From the IMG/VR virus record IMGVR_UViG_3300008267_000013, positions 1 to 64,000 of that record: a stretch of 64,000 bases of DNA; one strand, written 5' to 3'. Both the position numbers and the translations under genes were made by a program. How positions within the stretch are numbered: position 1 is the first letter of the stretch; every line of letters begins with the position of its first letter. This document shows positions 13,895 to 64,000 of this stretch, piece by piece. The stretch is from a virus. The notes under the pieces are model-generated. The model was not told the DNA's origin. It worked only from the letters and a program-made list of their open reading frames with translations, and made no database searches.

Positions 13895-16318
13895 ATGCTA
13901 GCTTTTACTGGAGTTCAGAAAATGGAAGAGCGTACTAGTACGATTGAAAGTCCTACTTTTGCCGTACAAGGAACAAGATTTCAAGAAGCACTAGCGCAAC
14001 TAATTCTAGATGACTCTGTATTCTCAGCACAAATTGGTGAAGTACTAGATGTTAATTTCTTCGAACTTAAGTATTTAAGGCTATTTACGCAAAAAATTTA
14101 TGATTATCGCAAGAAATATAGCGTGCATCCATCGCGTGAAACAATCGGTACTATCCTAAGGGCTGAAATTAATACAGAATCAGAAGTACTACAGAAACAA
14201 GTACGTGAATATTACGCTCGTATTATTTCAACAGATAATGTCGATGGGGCCGAACACATCAAAGATGTATCTCTTGATTTCTGTAAGAAGCAGAAATTAA
14301 AAGAGGCAATGATTAAGAGCGTTGAGCTTATTAAATCTTCTTCTTTTGATGAAGTTTCAAAGGTAATCAATGACGCACTTAAACTGGGTACAGACAATAA
14401 TCATGGTTATGATTATTTGGCTGATTTTGAAAGCCGCTTCGTCCTTAAAGCACGTAATCCTATTAGTACTGGTTGGGATTATATTGACTCTATCACCCGT
14501 GGTGGCCTTGGGCGAGGTGAATTGGGGGTTGTTATCGCTCCTACTGGCTGTCATAGCCGTGGCACTAGAGTTTTAATGTCTGATGGTGCATTTAAAAACG
14601 TTGAAGACATTGTTGTTGGTGACAAACTACTCGGCCCAGACTCTAACAACAGAAATGTTCTACAGCTACATCGCGGAACACAGATGATGTATAGGGTGGT
14701 CCCCGTTAAAGGCGATTCGTTTGTAGTGAATGCTGGTCATATTTTATCTCTGCGAAACACACAGAACAATAAAATTGTAAACATTAGCGTGTCTGAGTAT
14801 CTCTCTAAGAACAAAAATTTTAAGCACTTGCACAAACTTTATAGAAGCGGCGCTGTTAGTTTTCAGAACTCTCAAAAAATGAATAATGCGTATTTTCTAG
14901 GAATTATGCTTGGAGATGGGTCTGTTACGTCTAAACAAATCTCATTCACGACTGAAGATGAAACCTTGATTAACGAAATTAAAGCAAGCGGAATGATAGA
15001 TGATGCTTTTCAAATTAAAAGTTGGGCCAAGGCTAATTCTTCCTGTAGATCTTATGCCTTAAATTATTCTAAAAATTCTAAGATTTTTAATTTCTTTAAT
15101 GATCTTAAATTGATCGGCACTAATTCTGGCAACAAGTTTATTCCACATAGTTACAAAACAGCCAGTATTTCTGATAGACTAGAGTTGCTTGCTGGGTTAT
15201 TAGATACTGATGGATCTTTAAACGACAAATGTTTTGATTATATTTCTAAATCAAAACAATTATCGGAAGATGTAGCATTTATCGCTAGAAGTGTTGGACT
15301 TGCTGCTTATGTAAATGAATGTGTAAAAACTTGTCAAAACGATTTTTCGGGAACATATCACCGCGTTTCTATTAGTGGTAACTGCTCTATTATTCCAACA
15401 AGGCTTAATAGAAAGAAGGCGGCGGCACGCAAGCAAATTAAAAACGTGCTAAACACTGGTTTTGCCGTTATCGAAGAAGGTGAAGATGATTATTATGGAT
15501 TCGAGGTAGATGGCGATAATCTATACCTTATGGGTGACTTTACTGTTACCCATAATAGTGGTAAATCAATGTGTCTTGTGCATATTGGAGCAGCAGCACT
15601 AAAAGCTGGCAAAAACGTTGTATACTATACCTTAGAGCTCCAAGATAAAGTAATCGGAGCTAGATTTGATAGTTGTTTGACTGGCATAAATCTATCAGAA
15701 GTGATAAACTACAAAGAACAAGTCCTAGACATGGTAAAGGATTTACCAGGAAAGCTCATTATTAAAGAATATCCCACTAAAAGCGCAAGCACTAATACAA
15801 TTAGATCGCACTTAGATAAACTTAAAATGCATGGTCATAACGTTGATATGATTATTGTTGATTATGCGGATCTACTCCGACCAGTTACGCGAGAAAAAGA
15901 GAAACGAGTAGAGCTTGAGAGCATCTATGAAGAGCTTCGCGGCCTAGCGCAGATGAATAATTGTACTCTATGGACGGCTTCGCAAACTAATCGTGGCGGA
16001 CTAAATGCAGAAGTGGTAACAATGGAAAGCATCAGCGAAGCGTTTAACAAGTGTTTCGTAGCAGATTTTATTTGCACAGTTAGTAGAACAATCAAAGACA
16101 AAGCTTCAAACGAAGGACGCATGTTTATTGCCAAGAATCGTAATGGACCAGATGGCATGGTTTATCCAATATTTATGGACACTAAGAACGTAAAAATCAA
16201 GGTCTTGCAAGAAAGCACAGAAAGTGCATCAGAAATCATAGCTAATTCTGCTAAAGATCAACAGAAAGCTCTGAAAGATAAATATCGTGCATTTAAAAAG
16301 GAACAAGGATCTACTTAG
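13895..16318 (+). CDS. dnaB: DnaB/gp41-type replicative helicase interrupted by an intein
   Basis: 807 aa precursor with an in-frame 336-residue intein (residues 219-554), leaving a 471-aa helicase. The extein is DnaB-like: an N-terminal helical domain, then a RecA-fold motor. The P-loop A-P-T-G/S-G-K-S is rebuilt only after splicing. Walker B I-I-V-D-Y-A-D and a later T-A-S-Q-T-N sensor follow. It unwinds DNA 5'-3' at the fork. SD GGAG precedes the ATG. No separate primase or loader is seen in this window. Confidence 0.92.
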   Translation: MLAFTGVQKMEERTSTIESPTFAVQGTRFQEALAQLILDDSVFSAQIGEVLDVNFFELKYLRLFTQKIYDYRKKYSVHPSRETIGTILRAEINTESEVLQKQVREYYARIISTDNVDGAEHIKDVSLDFCKKQKLKEAMIKSVELIKSSSFDEVSKVINDALKLGTDNNHGYDYLADFESRFVLKARNPISTGWDYIDSITRGGLGRGELGVVIAPTGCHSRGTRVLMSDGAFKNVEDIVVGDKLLGPDSNNRNVLQLHRGTQMMYRVVPVKGDSFVVNAGHILSLRNTQNNKIVNISVSEYLSKNKNFKHLHKLYRSGAVSFQNSQKMNNAYFLGIMLGDGSVTSKQISFTTEDETLINEIKASGMIDDAFQIKSWAKANSSCRSYALNYSKNSKIFNFFNDLKLIGTNSGNKFIPHSYKTASISDRLELLAGLLDTDGSLNDKCFDYISKSKQLSEDVAFIARSVGLAAYVNECVKTCQNDFSGTYHRVSISGNCSIIPTRLNRKKAAARKQIKNVLNTGFAVIEEGEDDYYGFEVDGDNLYLMGDFTVTHNSGKSMCLVHIGAAALKAGKNVVYYTLELQDKVIGARFDSCLTGINLSEVINYKEQVLDMVKDLPGKLIIKEYPTKSASTNTIRSHLDKLKMHGHNVDMIIVDYADLLRPVTREKEKRVELESIYEELRGLAQMNNCTLWTASQTNRGGLNAEVVTMESISEAFNKCFVADFICTVSRTIKDKASNEGRMFIAKNRNGPDGMVYPIFMDTKNVKIKVLQESTESASEIIANSAKDQQKALKDKYRAFKKEQGST
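14549..15556 (+). mobile_element. Intein with LAGLIDADG endonuclease in helicase Walker A
   Basis: Begins with Cys (C-H-S-R-G-T-R-V, splicing block A) and ends H-N before a +1 Ser, within the helicase P-loop. Two LAGLIDADG-type blocks are present (L-G-I-M-L-G-D-G and L-A-G-L-L-D-T-D-G), so the homing endonuclease appears complete. Block F/G near the end reads Y-G-F-E-V-D-G-D...T-V-T-H-N. The +1 nucleophile is Ser. Insertion in the P-loop makes helicase activity depend on splicing. Confidence 0.93.
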
Positions 16319-37400: not shown

Positions 37401-39461
37401 ATGATAAAGAAGAAAGATATAGACCTAGGCTCTATTGTTAAGCAGAGTATCTTAGAATCCAAGAAAGATCTTGGAATTATAGCAGAACAAGAGAATTCCA
37501 AAACAAATAAGAAAAAATTTGTTTACAGGGAGTTTGATCCAATAAGAGACATAAAACTAGTTGACATGAACCCCGGTGCTTGGAGTCTTGCTGGAAATCC
37601 TGATGCTAATGATATTGATGCGGTTTTACAGAATTTAGTAGAAGCCGGCGAAGACCCAATACAGAAAATCAAAAGTTTATTTAAAAATTTAAATGAATTG
37701 ATGAAAGTTACCAAAACATCAGCAGGTTTAACAATAAGTAAAAGCGCTAGAGAATTTTCGTCACAGCAAGAAAAATTTTCTCATGCACAAATCATGAGAT
37801 TACTGTACACAATGTTTGTTGAAAGTAAACCAGGTGTTACAGGAACATGGTTTGAATCTTTTATAGCTAGAGCAGTTGGAGGTTACTCCACAAACAGAGA
37901 CGATATAACCATAGAAGATGTGAGAGTTGGTAATAACTTCCTAAGTTTGAAAGTTATCTCATCAGGAACTGATATAACTGGTTCCAAGTTCAATTTAGCA
38001 AGAGGTATATTATCTGCCGAAGAAGCTGGTGGCGCTGATTCGGGAATCATATATTTAGTGTGCGTAAAAGATACAAATAGTTTTCCTATGTATTTTGAAA
38101 CATTTTCATTTAAAATAAATAAAAATAACTTTTTCAAGTTTGTTTGCAGAAAACCAAACCCAACCGCAGATGAAATAAAAGCGCAAGCAGAGAGTATTCT
38201 TGGCCGTTTTATAGACGCTTTACCAGATAACTTAAAAACTAATCCTAACTTTAAAAAAACACTATCCGAGAATCTAATATTAGAAGGAAGACCAGTAACA
38301 TCAATAAAAATAAAACAATTAACTGCCGCAGCAGAAAATTATGCTACTGATAAGCTTGGTTGGAATAAGCAAGCAGGTGATTTGATTTCACACTTTTTCA
38401 CAAAATATTTTGAAGATTTAGTTGAAAATGTTTATAGTGTTTCTTTAAATATTAAAATAGGTGATAAAAGTCTTTACGAAGCATTAAGCGGCACTAAAGA
38501 AACTAAGGCATTATTTCCAGGATTCAATGAATTAAAAAAATTAATGAATCCAAATGATAAACCACAACAATCGTTTATAAATGACGTTCTTTATTCTAAA
38601 ATAATGCAAGGCTATTATAATCTCTCTGATAATCACAATGTGTGGTCGTTCGCGGAAACTATTGAGCCAGATAAAAATATTAGAAATCTAGCTGTAAGAG
38701 TAAATAATAGAGAAGTATTATCACCTGAAGAATATAAAATAATTGATGATCACTTAAAAAATAATAGTAGTAAATATGTAAACGCTTGGAAAACATTTGT
38801 AGAAAATGAAAAGGTTGTTAGTTTCTTTAAATTTCTTGATGAGTTTGCTTATTATGCACAAAAAGCACAAAAAGAAGCATCATCCAGCGCCAACCCAGAA
38901 CAACCTGCTTTAGCTCAACCAGAAATCCCTAGTCAGCCGCAGACAGGACTTCAAAACAAAACTTCATCGTATATTGATCTATTCTTTAAGTACGTTAAGA
39001 CAAACTCTGAAACATTCAAAATATTAAGTCAATCAGAAAATAGTAAGCAATTAGAGGAATCTAAAAAAGATACCGGCTCAAGATTCGAAATGTCTATCAG
39101 TTTAGCTAAAACTTTAGCTAATACTTCCGAGGCTGAACTTGATGATGCGTATGATACTGTGTACGTTGATACAAAATTTTTATTGAAAGAAGGAACACAA
39201 CTAGAAAATGAATTAAAAAATGATATATTTATGAAATTGTTTAAAGATAAACACGACTTAGAACAAAGATATTTACAATATTTCGCCTATGGAGAACTTG
39301 AGGGTGCTAAATTATTAACTAGTGTTGTTGATGATTTAAAGAAAGATTCTACAGATTTCTTACAGGGATTAGCTAATAAACAGCCCGTACAAGAAAATAA
39401 AAACAATAAACACTTGACAAAACAATGGGCAATGGATATATTCAATAAGTTGATCAAATAG
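37401..39461 (+). CDS. Large protein with N-terminal tag, unknown
   Basis: 686 aa. The N-terminus D-L-G-S-I-V-K-Q-S-I-L-E-S-K-K is like the tags of nearby proteins, with I-L-E as a possible cleavage site. The central part has D-I-T-I-E-D-V-R-V...L-S-L-K-V, an arrangement like a PD-(D/E)xK nuclease core but not decisive. A Pro/Gln-rich linker lies near residues 495-515. Between ClpP and GroEL, it may be an injected internal head protein. Confidence 0.55.
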   Translation: MIKKKDIDLGSIVKQSILESKKDLGIIAEQENSKTNKKKFVYREFDPIRDIKLVDMNPGAWSLAGNPDANDIDAVLQNLVEAGEDPIQKIKSLFKNLNELMKVTKTSAGLTISKSAREFSSQQEKFSHAQIMRLLYTMFVESKPGVTGTWFESFIARAVGGYSTNRDDITIEDVRVGNNFLSLKVISSGTDITGSKFNLARGILSAEEAGGADSGIIYLVCVKDTNSFPMYFETFSFKINKNNFFKFVCRKPNPTADEIKAQAESILGRFIDALPDNLKTNPNFKKTLSENLILEGRPVTSIKIKQLTAAAENYATDKLGWNKQAGDLISHFFTKYFEDLVENVYSVSLNIKIGDKSLYEALSGTKETKALFPGFNELKKLMNPNDKPQQSFINDVLYSKIMQGYYNLSDNHNVWSFAETIEPDKNIRNLAVRVNNREVLSPEEYKIIDDHLKNNSSKYVNAWKTFVENEKVVSFFKFLDEFAYYAQKAQKEASSSANPEQPALAQPEIPSQPQTGLQNKTSSYIDLFFKYVKTNSETFKILSQSENSKQLEESKKDTGSRFEMSISLAKTLANTSEAELDDAYDTVYVDTKFLLKEGTQLENELKNDIFMKLFKDKHDLEQRYLQYFAYGELEGAKLLTSVVDDLKKDSTDFLQGLANKQPVQENKNNKHLTKQWAMDIFNKLIK

Positions 39462-39469
39462 GAGGAACC

Positions 39470-41035
39470 GTGAAGGTTTACAACAAAGAATCAGATTTAA
39501 ATCAAAAAATTGTATCAGGTGTTAAAAAGTTAGCCGAAGCTGTTGGAACAACATTGGGGCCAAAAGGCCGTAATGTTATAATTCAACAAAAAGGTAAGAC
39601 GCCATTCATAACAAAAGATGGAATTTCAGTCGCTTCTCATATTGAATTTGAAGATCCGTTTGAGAACGCTGGCGCTCAAGTTTTAAAGCAAGTATCGCAG
39701 AGGACAGTAGAGGATTGTGGTGATGGTACGACAACATCAACAATTCTTGCAGCTGCTGTATTAACTAAATCGCAGAAGTACATAACTGCTGGTTCTTCCC
39801 CGACAGATATTCGTCGCGGTATGGAGAAGGCTGTTGAAGGCATTGTTGCTAATTTAAAGGATCTTGCAAAGCCAATCTCAAGTGTAGAAGATATTGAACA
39901 TATAGCGACAATATCAGCAAACGGTGATAAAAAAATTGGTAAACTAATTGCGACAGCTGTTGATAAAGCAGGTGTCGATGGAGCCATTTCTATCGAAGAA
40001 GGCCGCGCTCTAGAAACAAAATTAGATATCGTAGAAGGATTTCAGTTTGACGCTGGTTACGCCTCTCCGCAATTTATTACCGATGAACGCAAGGGTTCTG
40101 TAAGATATGAAAACGCTCTTGTTCTCGTAACAGACCAAGATATGGAACATATTGATGATATGATCCCTGTTCTAGAGATTGCAGCACGTGATAAGCGCCC
40201 ACTTGTTATTGTTGCCGAATCTGTTGAAGGACAGGCTCTTGCAGCTCTTATCATGAACGCAGTACGTGGTACAATGCGTGTTATGGCTATTAAAGCCCCA
40301 CGATATGGTCAAGAACGCAAGAATCTATTAAAAGATCTCTCAATATCAGTTGGAGCTAAGTTTATTTCCAAAGAACACGGCATGTTGCTAAGAGATGTCA
40401 AATTGGTAGATCTAGGCTCAGTTAAGAGCGTAGAATCATTAAAGAATTGGTCAACATTTGTTGGCGGAAAGGGTGATCATGAAGAAATTGAAAAGCGCAT
40501 TGAATCACTTAAAAATGAAATTACTCAAACCGATGACCTATCTGAATGTAGCCGCATCCAGGATCGTATCACAAGACTCGCAGCAGGCGTGGCTATTATA
40601 TCTGTTGGGGGAGTTACAGAAGTAGATATGATTGAGCGTAAACACCGTATCGAAGATGCGTTATCCGCAGTTAAGAGCGCTCAAGAGGAGGGAATATTAC
40701 CTGGTGGTGGCGTAGCTCTGCTGCGTGCAATAGCAGGATTAAATGTTACAGGTGACAATCAAGATGAAGAATTTGGTATACAAATCATCAAAGACGCATG
40801 TGAAGCTCCTATCCGTAAGATAGCCGAAAACTGTAATGAAAAAGCGGATGTCATCATCAATAATTTAACTGGTCGCGATACTTGGATTGGTTATGATTTT
40901 AAAGATGGAATATATGTAAATTTCCAAACGGTTGGAGTGCTCGATCCTGCAAAAGTAACACGCTGCGCTCTTCAAAATGCTGTGTCAGCAGCCTCAACTT
41001 TATTGACAACAAATTACGCCATTATTGAAGTCTGA
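39470..41035 (+). CDS. groEL: GroEL-type chaperonin
   Basis: 521 aa from GTG with SD AGGAGG. Hallmarks: T-L-G-P-K-G-R-N-V near residue 30, D-G-T-T-T-S near 85, and a late G-G-G-V-A-L-L-R. The usual C-terminal Gly-Gly-Met tail is missing and it is slightly shorter than E. coli GroEL (548 aa). Phage GroELs can work with altered co-chaperonin needs. The GroES-like protein at 23181 is the natural partner. It probably folds the phage's own capsid proteins. Confidence 0.95.
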   Translation: MKVYNKESDLNQKIVSGVKKLAEAVGTTLGPKGRNVIIQQKGKTPFITKDGISVASHIEFEDPFENAGAQVLKQVSQRTVEDCGDGTTTSTILAAAVLTKSQKYITAGSSPTDIRRGMEKAVEGIVANLKDLAKPISSVEDIEHIATISANGDKKIGKLIATAVDKAGVDGAISIEEGRALETKLDIVEGFQFDAGYASPQFITDERKGSVRYENALVLVTDQDMEHIDDMIPVLEIAARDKRPLVIVAESVEGQALAALIMNAVRGTMRVMAIKAPRYGQERKNLLKDLSISVGAKFISKEHGMLLRDVKLVDLGSVKSVESLKNWSTFVGGKGDHEEIEKRIESLKNEITQTDDLSECSRIQDRITRLAAGVAIISVGGVTEVDMIERKHRIEDALSAVKSAQEEGILPGGGVALLRAIAGLNVTGDNQDEEFGIQIIKDACEAPIRKIAENCNEKADVIINNLTGRDTWIGYDFKDGIYVNFQTVGVLDPAKVTRCALQNAVSAASTLLTTNYAIIEV

Positions 41036-59966: not shown

Positions 59967-61139
59967 TTAACCCTTCTTGCTATTCTTCACTTCAACAACA
60001 ATCTCGTTTGTCTGGAAGTATGGACTCTCCTTACCGGCACGGTCAGTCATCCACATACGTCGGACACGGCAAGGAACAGGCGCAGGAGCCTGCATATCGG
60101 TTAAAACAATAAGCCCATCAATTTCGGGGTGCTTGTTGACCCACTTGGTTGGTGCATCGAAGTCGGTGCCGCCGCACATAACACGCTCAGTCCTGTGCTT
60201 CTGTCCTTTCTTCCATTCATACACCAGCTTATCGCCTACCTCAGTATCAAAAGGTACAACGGTGAAAGTTACCAGCTTCGACAGACCATTCAATTCAGCA
60301 AAGAACATGGAAAGCATCTCGTCGCTAACAGAACCGCTCTGGTCAATAGCAATTGCAATATGTGCAGAATGGTTTGTCTTGCGACCGGGATGGATATATG
60401 GGAACCGCTTGTTGATACGCTTGATTGTGTTGGAACGATTCGCCCGCTGTGCGTTGCCAATAAAGTTGCGGAGGATTGCACGCCAATCAACCGATCCGTT
60501 GACGAATTGCAGGATCGCCCGCTTAACGTCCTCGTGCATATTGCCGAATCCACGGCTAGACTTGGAGGCTTCCTCGACGCCCTTCTTCATAGCCTCACGC
60601 AGACGCTCCCGTGCAATAGCCTTGCTGTCACCGTTCGCCTCGTTCTCTCCCCATCCATCGTGATCGTCAAAGGAATCCTGACCATCACCAAAGTTGGGAT
60701 CATTCTCTGCCTTCTCCTCCAACAGCTTCATATATTGTTCAGCCGAGAGGTAATCATCGAAACCAAACTTGGACGGGAAAACACCAAACTCTGGAATCTC
60801 GTCCTTGATATGGCAGTTGATCGACATATCAGTTGCCATGTTCCACATACGGCTCACTTGCTTGCCATCAGGGTTGCGGCTCAATACGTGTTCAAAGATC
60901 AAGTGGTAGAACTCATGCTTGAGAACACCCGTTCGCTGCTTGTCGGGCAATCCATCAAAGAACGCTTGGTTGTATGCCATATCAAAGAAGCCGTCATCGG
61001 TGATACGAACACCAGCAGTAGGAATATTATTGTTAGGGTGCTTGTTGACAGACCGGCTCATAGCAGCAAAGAATGGCTCCTCACGCAGAAGCCGGAAAAC
61101 ATCATGCTCAAGGTTGTAGTCGCTCAAGGTTGTCTCCAT
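59967..61139 (-). CDS. VWA domain / putative metallopeptidase (DUF2201-like)
   Basis: 390 aa. The N-terminal part has a zinc motif K-H-E-F-Y-H (H-E-x2-H) near residue 74 and F-E-H shortly after. The C-terminal VWA domain has the MIDAS start D-Q-S-G-S-V-S (about 269-275), with a later T-D and D-M-Q. This is the DUF2201 architecture that pairs with MoxR ATPases. The linker (about 150-185) is acidic and Gly-rich. The start codon sits at the foot of a GCCGC/GCGGC hairpin, with no clear SD. Confidence 0.85.
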   Translation of the reverse strand: METTLSDYNLEHDVFRLLREEPFFAAMSRSVNKHPNNNIPTAGVRITDDGFFDMAYNQAFFDGLPDKQRTGVLKHEFYHLIFEHVLSRNPDGKQVSRMWNMATDMSINCHIKDEIPEFGVFPSKFGFDDYLSAEQYMKLLEEKAENDPNFGDGQDSFDDHDGWGENEANGDSKAIARERLREAMKKGVEEASKSSRGFGNMHEDVKRAILQFVNGSVDWRAILRNFIGNAQRANRSNTIKRINKRFPYIHPGRKTNHSAHIAIAIDQSGSVSDEMLSMFFAELNGLSKLVTFTVVPFDTEVGDKLVYEWKKGQKHRTERVMCGGTDFDAPTKWVNKHPEIDGLIVLTDMQAPAPVPCRVRRMWMTDRAGKESPYFQTNEIVVEVKNSKKG

Positions 61140-62907: not shown

Positions 62908-62982
62908 TGGTGCTTTCGGGAAGAGTTGCACTTCCATCACGAACTTTACAAGAGTTGTATTTTGCTATTAAACTACGAAAGC
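62908..62982 (-). tRNA. tRNA-Thr(UGU)
   Basis: Acceptor GCTTTCG pairs with CGAAAGC, discriminator A, and CCA is encoded. The anticodon loop CTTGTAA gives UGU. T arm GGAAG/CTTCC with loop TGCAACT (unusual G for T). One anticodon-stem mismatch is possible at its outer pair. Reads ACA codons, common in this AT-rich genome. Confidence 0.85.
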
Positions 62983-63054: not shown

Positions 63055-63126
63055 TGGAGGCCCGTGAGCGAGTTGAACGCTCTTAGCAGATTTAGAAGAT
63101 CCGCCGCTGAATCCGTCAGACGGGCC
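63055..63126 (-). tRNA. tRNA-Arg(UCU)-like, short D arm
   Basis: Acceptor GGCCCGT pairs with ACGGGCC, CCA encoded. Anticodon loop CTTCTAA gives UCU. The T arm GAGCG/CGCTC with loop TTCAACT is canonical. Only 16 nt lie between the acceptor and anticodon stems (CTGA...TCAG may pair), about 4-5 fewer than normal, so the D arm is reduced. It may be degenerate or specialised. Confidence 0.65.
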
Positions 63127-63131
63127 ATAAA

Positions 63132-63647
63132 CTATCTTTTCTTGCTCAGACGTTCTTTTTTCTTTTTTTCATTATTGGCAGATTTGCATAATTCACACCT
63201 ACATTTTCTATATTGATAGGTATTAGGTGTTCCGTGAACCCAAGTAGAGGGATCACTTGTTGTACCACCTCTGGTGGTTACTTGTTTTGTCTGTCCGTAT
63301 TTTCCGGCACACTCTCTAGAACAGAATGGACCAGCTTTGCCCTTCTTAATGTTTCCTCTTACATCACGCGCTTCTCTTATAAATTCTTTTTCACAAAGTG
63401 GACAAATATGTTTACTAAGTTCAGCAATAGGAGCGTGCATCCTACTATGTTCTTCTCTTGATAGTATCTCTAGGTTCTCTATCCTATTATCTAGTTTGTT
63501 TTCATTTAGATGATGCACAACTTCATCAGTAGTCAGTCTCCTACCAATATGTTGTTCCATAATCCAACGATGTTCTAGATAATATCTAGATTTACCATCT
63601 ATCTTAACGCAAATATACTTGTAACCTTCTTTAGAAACGTGTGGCAT
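63132..63647 (-). CDS. HNH homing endonuclease in the tRNA cluster
   Basis: 171 aa. The N-terminal HNH domain reads L-E-H-R-W-I-M-E-Q-H-I-G-R, D-E-V-V-H-H-L-N-E-N-K and D-N-R-I-E-N-L. The C-terminal part has two Cys pairs (C-P-L-C and C-S-R-E-C) and a final C-R-C-E-L-C, likely zinc fingers for DNA recognition. It sits between tRNA-Leu and tRNA-Arg. SD AGGAGG is masked by an inverted repeat. It could promote spread of the nearby group I intron or of itself. Confidence 0.9.
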   Translation of the reverse strand: MPHVSKEGYKYICVKIDGKSRYYLEHRWIMEQHIGRRLTTDEVVHHLNENKLDNRIENLEILSREEHSRMHAPIAELSKHICPLCEKEFIREARDVRGNIKKGKAGPFCSRECAGKYGQTKQVTTRGGTTSDPSTWVHGTPNTYQYRKCRCELCKSANNEKKKKERLSKKR

Positions 63648-63716: not shown

Positions 63717-63768
63717 TGGTCCCAGCTGAGCGAGTCGAACGCTCAATCCCGTAAGGGCGGTTGATTTT
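63717..63768 (-). tRNA. tRNA-Leu(UAA), 3' exon only in window
   Basis: Starts with AAAATCAACC, so the intron splits the anticodon between U34 and A35. A variable arm (GCCC/GGG), T arm GAGCG/CGCTC with loop TTCGACT, acceptor 3' AGCTGGG, discriminator A and CCA follow. The 5' exon lies beyond 64000. Confidence 0.85.
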
Positions 63769-64000
63769 CTTACCACTTCAGCTTTCGCTGCCATCTTTCG
63801 ATGTTTGTGGTCTGGACTATGCCTTCACCTTTTAATCTTTCGATCAGTCAGGTGGGTGCCGTCTAGTCTCTACACGTTCTAGATATTTCTATCTAGCTTC
63901 GCTCGGCGTTGCCAGTTAAGGGTTCACCGAATTTGACACCATTCAGATAGAGGATTTCGCCTCTACTGCTCAATTAAATAAGTCAACTGTGTATGCCATT
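63769..64000 (-). other. Group I intron in tRNA-Leu(UAA), 3' part
   Basis: On the minus strand the conserved core elements are readable: P/Q near 63917-63901 (CTTAACTGGCAACGCCGAGC), R near 63875-63855 (GTGTAGAGACTAGAC), and S near 63823-63814 (GGCATAGTCC). Two GAAA tetraloop hairpins follow, and the intron ends with G at 63769. The position is the same as that of the cyanobacterial and plastid tRNA-Leu(UAA) introns. No ORF inside the visible part. Confidence 0.9.

Follow-up and report, generated by a model that had tools for sequence, protein, structure and literature searches.

Group I introns are known in bacterial tRNA genes and in phage protein genes. The closest described systems are the group IC3 introns of bacterial and plastid tRNA-Leu(UAA), which share with the introns described here the insertion site between U34 and A35, the core helices, the lack of an open reading frame (ORF) and a length of about 200 nt; unlike these, the tRNAs considered here are phage-encoded, and their introns are present or absent among related phages. 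Other bacterial tRNA introns (Ile/fMet CAU and Arg CCU) belong to the same class and also interrupt the anticodon loop, mostly after position 36 in those sampled; in phage tRNAs we find introns at 34|35 (Ile UAU, Arg UCU, Thr UGU), 35|36 (Asn GUU) and 33|34 (CAU). In phages, the group I introns of terminase, capsid and DnaB helicase genes split protein-coding sequence, whereas the present introns split tRNA anticodons. Both are detected by R1, a covariance model that we built from 31 related phage and bacterial tRNA introns, this phage's three included; its protein-gene matches come from podoviruses and crAss-like phages, in which genes for capsid, terminase and helicase are split; Vibrio phage VEN, Pelagibacter phage HTVC120P and pYD6-A are among the carriers. 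According to a 2014 review, all phage group I introns then known were in protein genes, despite the many tRNAs of phages (PMC3984707). We found no later report to the contrary in the open papers searched, which included those on huge phages, crAss phages, Bastillevirinae and viral tRNAs and few from subscription journals.

The window, that is, the whole 64,000-base stretch of DNA that was analysed, stops inside a tRNA-Leu(UAA) gene located at 63717-64013 on the minus strand of the 87,792-base parent record (G000; ARAGORN, intron mode). The initial annotation had described a group I intron splitting this phage tRNA at 63717-64000. Rfam RF00028, R1 and ARAGORN agree on the intron, and the coordinates are correct as far as the window goes; the gene itself reaches 64013, 13 nt further. 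The tRNA array and its neighbourhood contain the following features.

63980..64013, minus strand: 5' exon of tRNA-Leu(UAA), 21 nt of which (63980..64000) lie in the window (ARAGORN)
63769..63979, minus strand: group I (IC3-like) intron of 211 nt (Rfam, model R1, core pairs)
63969..63971, minus strand: guide GAG, which pairs with exon CUU in P1 (pairing)
63864..63868, minus strand: 5' strand of P7, the guanosine-binding helix, GACUA (alignment A1)
63815..63819, minus strand: 3' strand of P7, UAGUC (alignment A1)
63717..63768, minus strand: 3' exon of tRNA-Leu(UAA), CCA encoded (ARAGORN, intron mode)
63132..63647, minus strand: freestanding HNH endonuclease gene, 171 aa (Pfam HNH_3, E 5e-13; phrog_14913, E 3e-19)
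63059..63126, minus strand: tRNA-Arg(UCU)-like sequence with a degenerate D arm (by eye; called by neither ARAGORN nor Rfam)
62908..62982, minus strand: tRNA-Thr(UGU) of the same array, without an intron (ARAGORN; Rfam 54.3 bits)

The sequence beyond 64000 supplies the rest of the 5' exon, which terminates in GACUU, the last base being U34. The intron is located between U34 and A35 (ARAGORN, intron mode), and this is indeed the site used in cyanobacterial tRNA-Leu, as found in all six cyanobacterial loci of our tree set. P1, whose absence, like that of the 5' exon, would have spoken against an intron, is present, as are P10 and the terminal omega-G. Within the guide UUGAG, GAG and exon CUU form P1 with a U.G at the splice site, and the preceding UU pairs with AA of the 3' exon in P10 (two of three pairs). 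The P7 columns of alignment A1 (145-149/194-198) are 100% paired and covary in one pair. Once the intron is removed, the anticodon loop reads CUUAAAA, and the tRNA forms a cloverleaf with a long variable arm and a UAA anticodon. The genome is AT-rich, and UUA is common in the phage, at 30 per thousand codons.

RF00028 matches window positions 63789-63990 (minus strand) with 51.4 bits (E 3.8e-10), above the gathering cut-off of 50. Model R1 gives the same intron 181 bits, in part by construction because the intron belongs to its training set. We built R1 because RF00028 by itself lacks the sensitivity: its sole match across four phage records with tRNA introns is in LR756501, away from the tRNA introns. 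The assignment to subgroup IC3 reflects length and helices that align with those of bacterial tRNA-Leu and tRNA-Arg introns, the label resting on alignment A1, which is without large unalignable parts.

A search of the parent record with R1 returns exactly three introns, the other two being situated in the following genes.

64049-64341, minus strand: tRNA-Ile(UAU), intron 64089-64306, 218 nt (ARAGORN; R1 145.6 bits)
82157-82447, plus strand: tRNA-Asn(GUU), intron 82191-82406, 216 nt (ARAGORN; R1 162.4 bits)

The tRNA-Ile intron is inserted at U34|A35, as in tRNA-Leu, and the tRNA-Asn intron between U35 and U36; an ORF is absent from all three introns. The Ile guide AUAUGAG fits the 3' exon AUA, and the Asn guide UUAGCAGC fits GCUGU and UAA. 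With their own exons the introns form 3+3 (Ile), 5+3 (Asn) and 3+2 (Leu) pairs in P1 and P10. Three differing guides, each matched to its own tRNA, are the pattern expected of working introns.

Judged by sequence, the anticodons of this phage's tRNA-Leu, tRNA-Ile and tRNA-Asn are very probably split by mobile, self-splicing, ORF-less IC3-like group I introns. After transcription, the Leu intron would fold so that its guide positions CUU, the end of the exon, in P1, with the U.G at the splice site; a guanosine bound in P7 would attack the 5' splice site, and ligation of the exons would give a normal tRNA-Leu that reads UUA. The tRNA-Ile(UAU) and tRNA-Asn(GUU) would be matured by separate introns of the same class, with guides fitted to their own exons. 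Introns of this class, which also occur in bacterial tRNA genes, would be gained and lost at fixed sites in the anticodon loops of phage tRNA genes. HNH-bearing copies in other phages probably drive homing; the ORF-less introns described here may have lost the HNH gene or may depend for their movement on an enzyme acting in trans, possibly the adjoining HNH enzyme or another homing endonuclease of the phage. We infer splicing in vivo, and likewise which nuclease is used and in which direction transfer ran.

Intronless tRNA-Leu(UAA), tRNA-Ile(UAU) and tRNA-Asn(GUU) genes occur in relatives with 69-75% identical DnaE. Those for tRNA-Ile and tRNA-Asn are approximately 89% identical by BLAST, and those for tRNA-Leu are divergent. 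The related phage G046 carries a syntenic array (conserved gene, Arg(UCU), Lys, Leu, Ile) with neither introns nor an HNH gene. In another lineage, the intron-bearing tRNA-Leu of contig L010, once spliced, matches the intronless gene of the cultured cyanophage S-TIM5 at 81 of 83 positions, and the two have the gene order Ile-Met-Leu in common. Introns are thus present and absent at the same site of homologous tRNA genes, and the anticodon-loop introns are mobile in this sense.

Comparison of the Leu intron with that of the sister phage G041 reveals 94.8% identity in the intron, 64.7% in the 5' exon and approximately 50% in the 5' flank. The excess of intron over exon identity indicates intron movement, and core constraint alone does not explain a value of 95%, since the phage's own introns share only 63-72%. 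For the Asn intron, identity to its counterpart in phage G026 is 85.1%, as against 70.7% for the exons. Of the transfer or homing suggested initially, movement between phages at this site is upheld in outline.

To place the introns, we computed a tree of 118 sequences. Most phage introns separate from bacterial introns in this tree, a split that may be biased by the differing core patterns with which the phage and bacterial sets were gathered. The Leu introns of our phage and G041 fall within the bacterial introns at well-supported nodes (97/85, 98/88, 98/93). Less well supported are the placements of the other two: the Asn intron joins those of tRNA-Asn in other phages, and the Ile intron joins the phage introns at the CAU site. 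The closest non-phage relative of the Leu intron (77% identity) is found in Acidobacteriota, where it splits a tRNA-Leu on a Pyrinomonadaceae chromosome between genes that appear bacterial.

Three separate acquisitions of the Leu, Ile and Asn introns would be the best reading of the tree, with no alternative rejected by AU tests. The three could instead be copies of one intron that spread ectopically between the phage's own tRNA genes. The Leu intron is next to the Ile intron, both sit at U34|A35 after the exon end CUU, and a single clade of all three is not rejected (p 0.093), nor is one of all phage introns (p 0.34). Nevertheless, we regard such copying as unlikely: the three are at most 72% identical to each other but 95% (Leu) and 85% (Asn) identical to introns of other phages, and they fall into three parts of the tree. 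A wider role of phages can be proposed tentatively: phages would harbour and carry group I introns of the anticodon loop, whose lineages would move among phage tRNA genes of several isotypes and cross between phages and bacterial chromosomes. If this holds true, phages would account for part of the uneven distribution of tRNA-Leu(UAA) introns over bacterial phyla.

The shared core bears on whether the introns are intact. Across the 31 introns, a 45-pair core including the P7 pseudoknot has 95.3% of its cells paired; 33 of the 45 pairs show changes on both sides among these phage and bacterial tRNA introns, and core covariation is 0.597 as compared to at most 0.117 in slid controls. We find it very unlikely that the introns are decayed, non-splicing remnants and the tRNA genes pseudogenes. 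Such decay would fit the missing ORFs, the degenerate D arm of the adjacent tRNA-Arg-like sequence and the Ile intron, which scores 34.7 bits with RF00028, under the cut-off, and forms 37 of the 45 aligned pairs. However, 44 (Leu) and 43 (Asn) pairs are formed in the other two, the exons yield complete cloverleafs, and the guides match their own exons; by eye, the P3 mismatches of the Ile intron seem to come from an alignment that is off by one column.

A tRNA-Leu gene or intron captured directly from cyanobacteria would account for the shared insertion site and class, and grouping the Leu intron with cyanobacteria is not rejected (AU test, p 0.41). We nevertheless consider such an origin highly improbable, as the cyanobacterial introns form a clade of their own (100/100) and the nearest non-phage intron is the acidobacterial one. 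A special link to cyanobacteria or plastids is thus not supported.

The record encodes a phage-type DnaE polymerase, DnaB, a UvsX-like recombinase, a kinase of the polynucleotide kinase family, GroEL and PhoH, and IMG/VR holds contigs with DnaE 52-77% identical to that of the phage. GC content is approximately 50% from window position ~58000 to record position ~73000, a block that includes tRNA-Leu, and approximately 35% elsewhere. A gene of this block (59967-61139) recurs in 7 of 12 DnaE relatives at 51-62% identity, beside their tRNA clusters or several kb away. A chimeric or bacterial contig, in which the tRNA intron would not be a phage gene, could be suspected from the GC step and from the record being a metagenomic fragment, but is scarcely credible because of this conserved gene near tRNA clusters, with phage replication genes in other parts of the record, the third intron in its AT-rich part and the same arrangement in the cultured phage Atu_ph07. 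As a separate observation, minus-strand genes make up the GC-rich block, or at least the part of it that surrounds the tRNA array.

Introns of this kind are widespread. An 18-base core pattern matched at least 119 IMG/VR stretches, and ARAGORN reads an intron-split tRNA in 92 of these pattern-selected loci, the viral counts depending on IMG/VR's own virus calls. Under a splice-site rule (U.G at the 5' splice site plus omega-G), most are Leu(UAA) at 34|35, and the remainder are CAU at 33|34, Asn(GUU), Arg(UCU) and Thr(UGU). A second pattern additionally yields tRNA-Met, tRNA-Lys, tRNA-Gln and further tRNA-Leu cases. Three ARAGORN calls with anticodon TTA, candidate suppressor tRNAs, become CAU at 33|34 under the same rule and were discarded. 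A BLAST search of annotated phage records with introns of this class identified the following unannotated gene.

L245, 2245-2606: tRNA-Leu(UAA) with a 278-nt group I intron, in the cultured jumbo Agrobacterium phage Atu_ph07

No introns are mentioned in the Atu_ph07 paper, which lists 33 tRNAs (PMC6102473). Further tRNA-Leu introns are present in huge phages of 735 kb and 595 kb, and a 484-kb phage (L251, 2322-3344) has short group I introns in tRNA-Lys and tRNA-Arg. The latter locus also contains a HEARO RNA (RF02033, 144 bits) after the two introns. Default tRNA finders call none of the split tRNAs, including that of Atu_ph07. Because intron-split genes are missed in this way, phage tRNA repertoires are under-counted, even in this cultured phage, and mobile introns appear to be moving through phage tRNA genes. 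Natural pairs of intron-plus and intron-minus phages provide a system for studying how tRNA introns spread, and bear on whether phages ferry them between bacteria.

In other phages, the 595-kb phage with its tRNA-Leu intron included, an HNH ORF lies inside the tRNA intron, mostly in tRNA-Leu(UAA) (L012, L033, L078, L044, L056, L101 and L250), and is likely the homing engine there. Double model matches in 690-nt tRNA-Leu introns, considered as twin introns, proved to be single introns interrupted by an HNH ORF. In our phage the HNH gene is real and lies just downstream, as first annotated, but it stands outside the intron, 69 nt downstream of tRNA-Leu, and by eye is of another HNH type than the intron-borne ORFs. 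It is possible that this gene (63132-63647) homes the Leu intron in trans; the phage has further HNH genes and one GIY-YIG gene elsewhere. An HNH neighbour is not a general feature of phage tRNA introns, since only 1 of 77 others has an ORF with an HNH motif outside the intron and no more than 1 kb away, a lower bound given by a motif search.

Several further features were recorded. The L376 (2976-3065), L377 (2549-2638) and L379 (334-424) loci of related phages encode unusual tRNAs of 90 nt; their anticodon is UAU, their D region very short and their variable arm long. The phage GroEL is located at window 39470-41035 (phrog_5725, E 3e-144); a tblastn search with ORF 37401-39461 gave no match. 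In the DnaB helicase (window 13895-16318), the internal stretch 225-556 matches families named terminase and endonuclease and is probably an intein. At L005 8596-10378 (record 83596-85378), a SpoU-type methylase gene precedes a putative homing endonuclease ORF, after which the C-terminal part of the methylase occurs a second time, as if a homing gene had been inserted at this locus. At L005 10460-12446 (record 85460-87446), the PhoH gene is followed by an HNH gene whose final residues repeat the C-terminus of PhoH (AVASLAA..VL).
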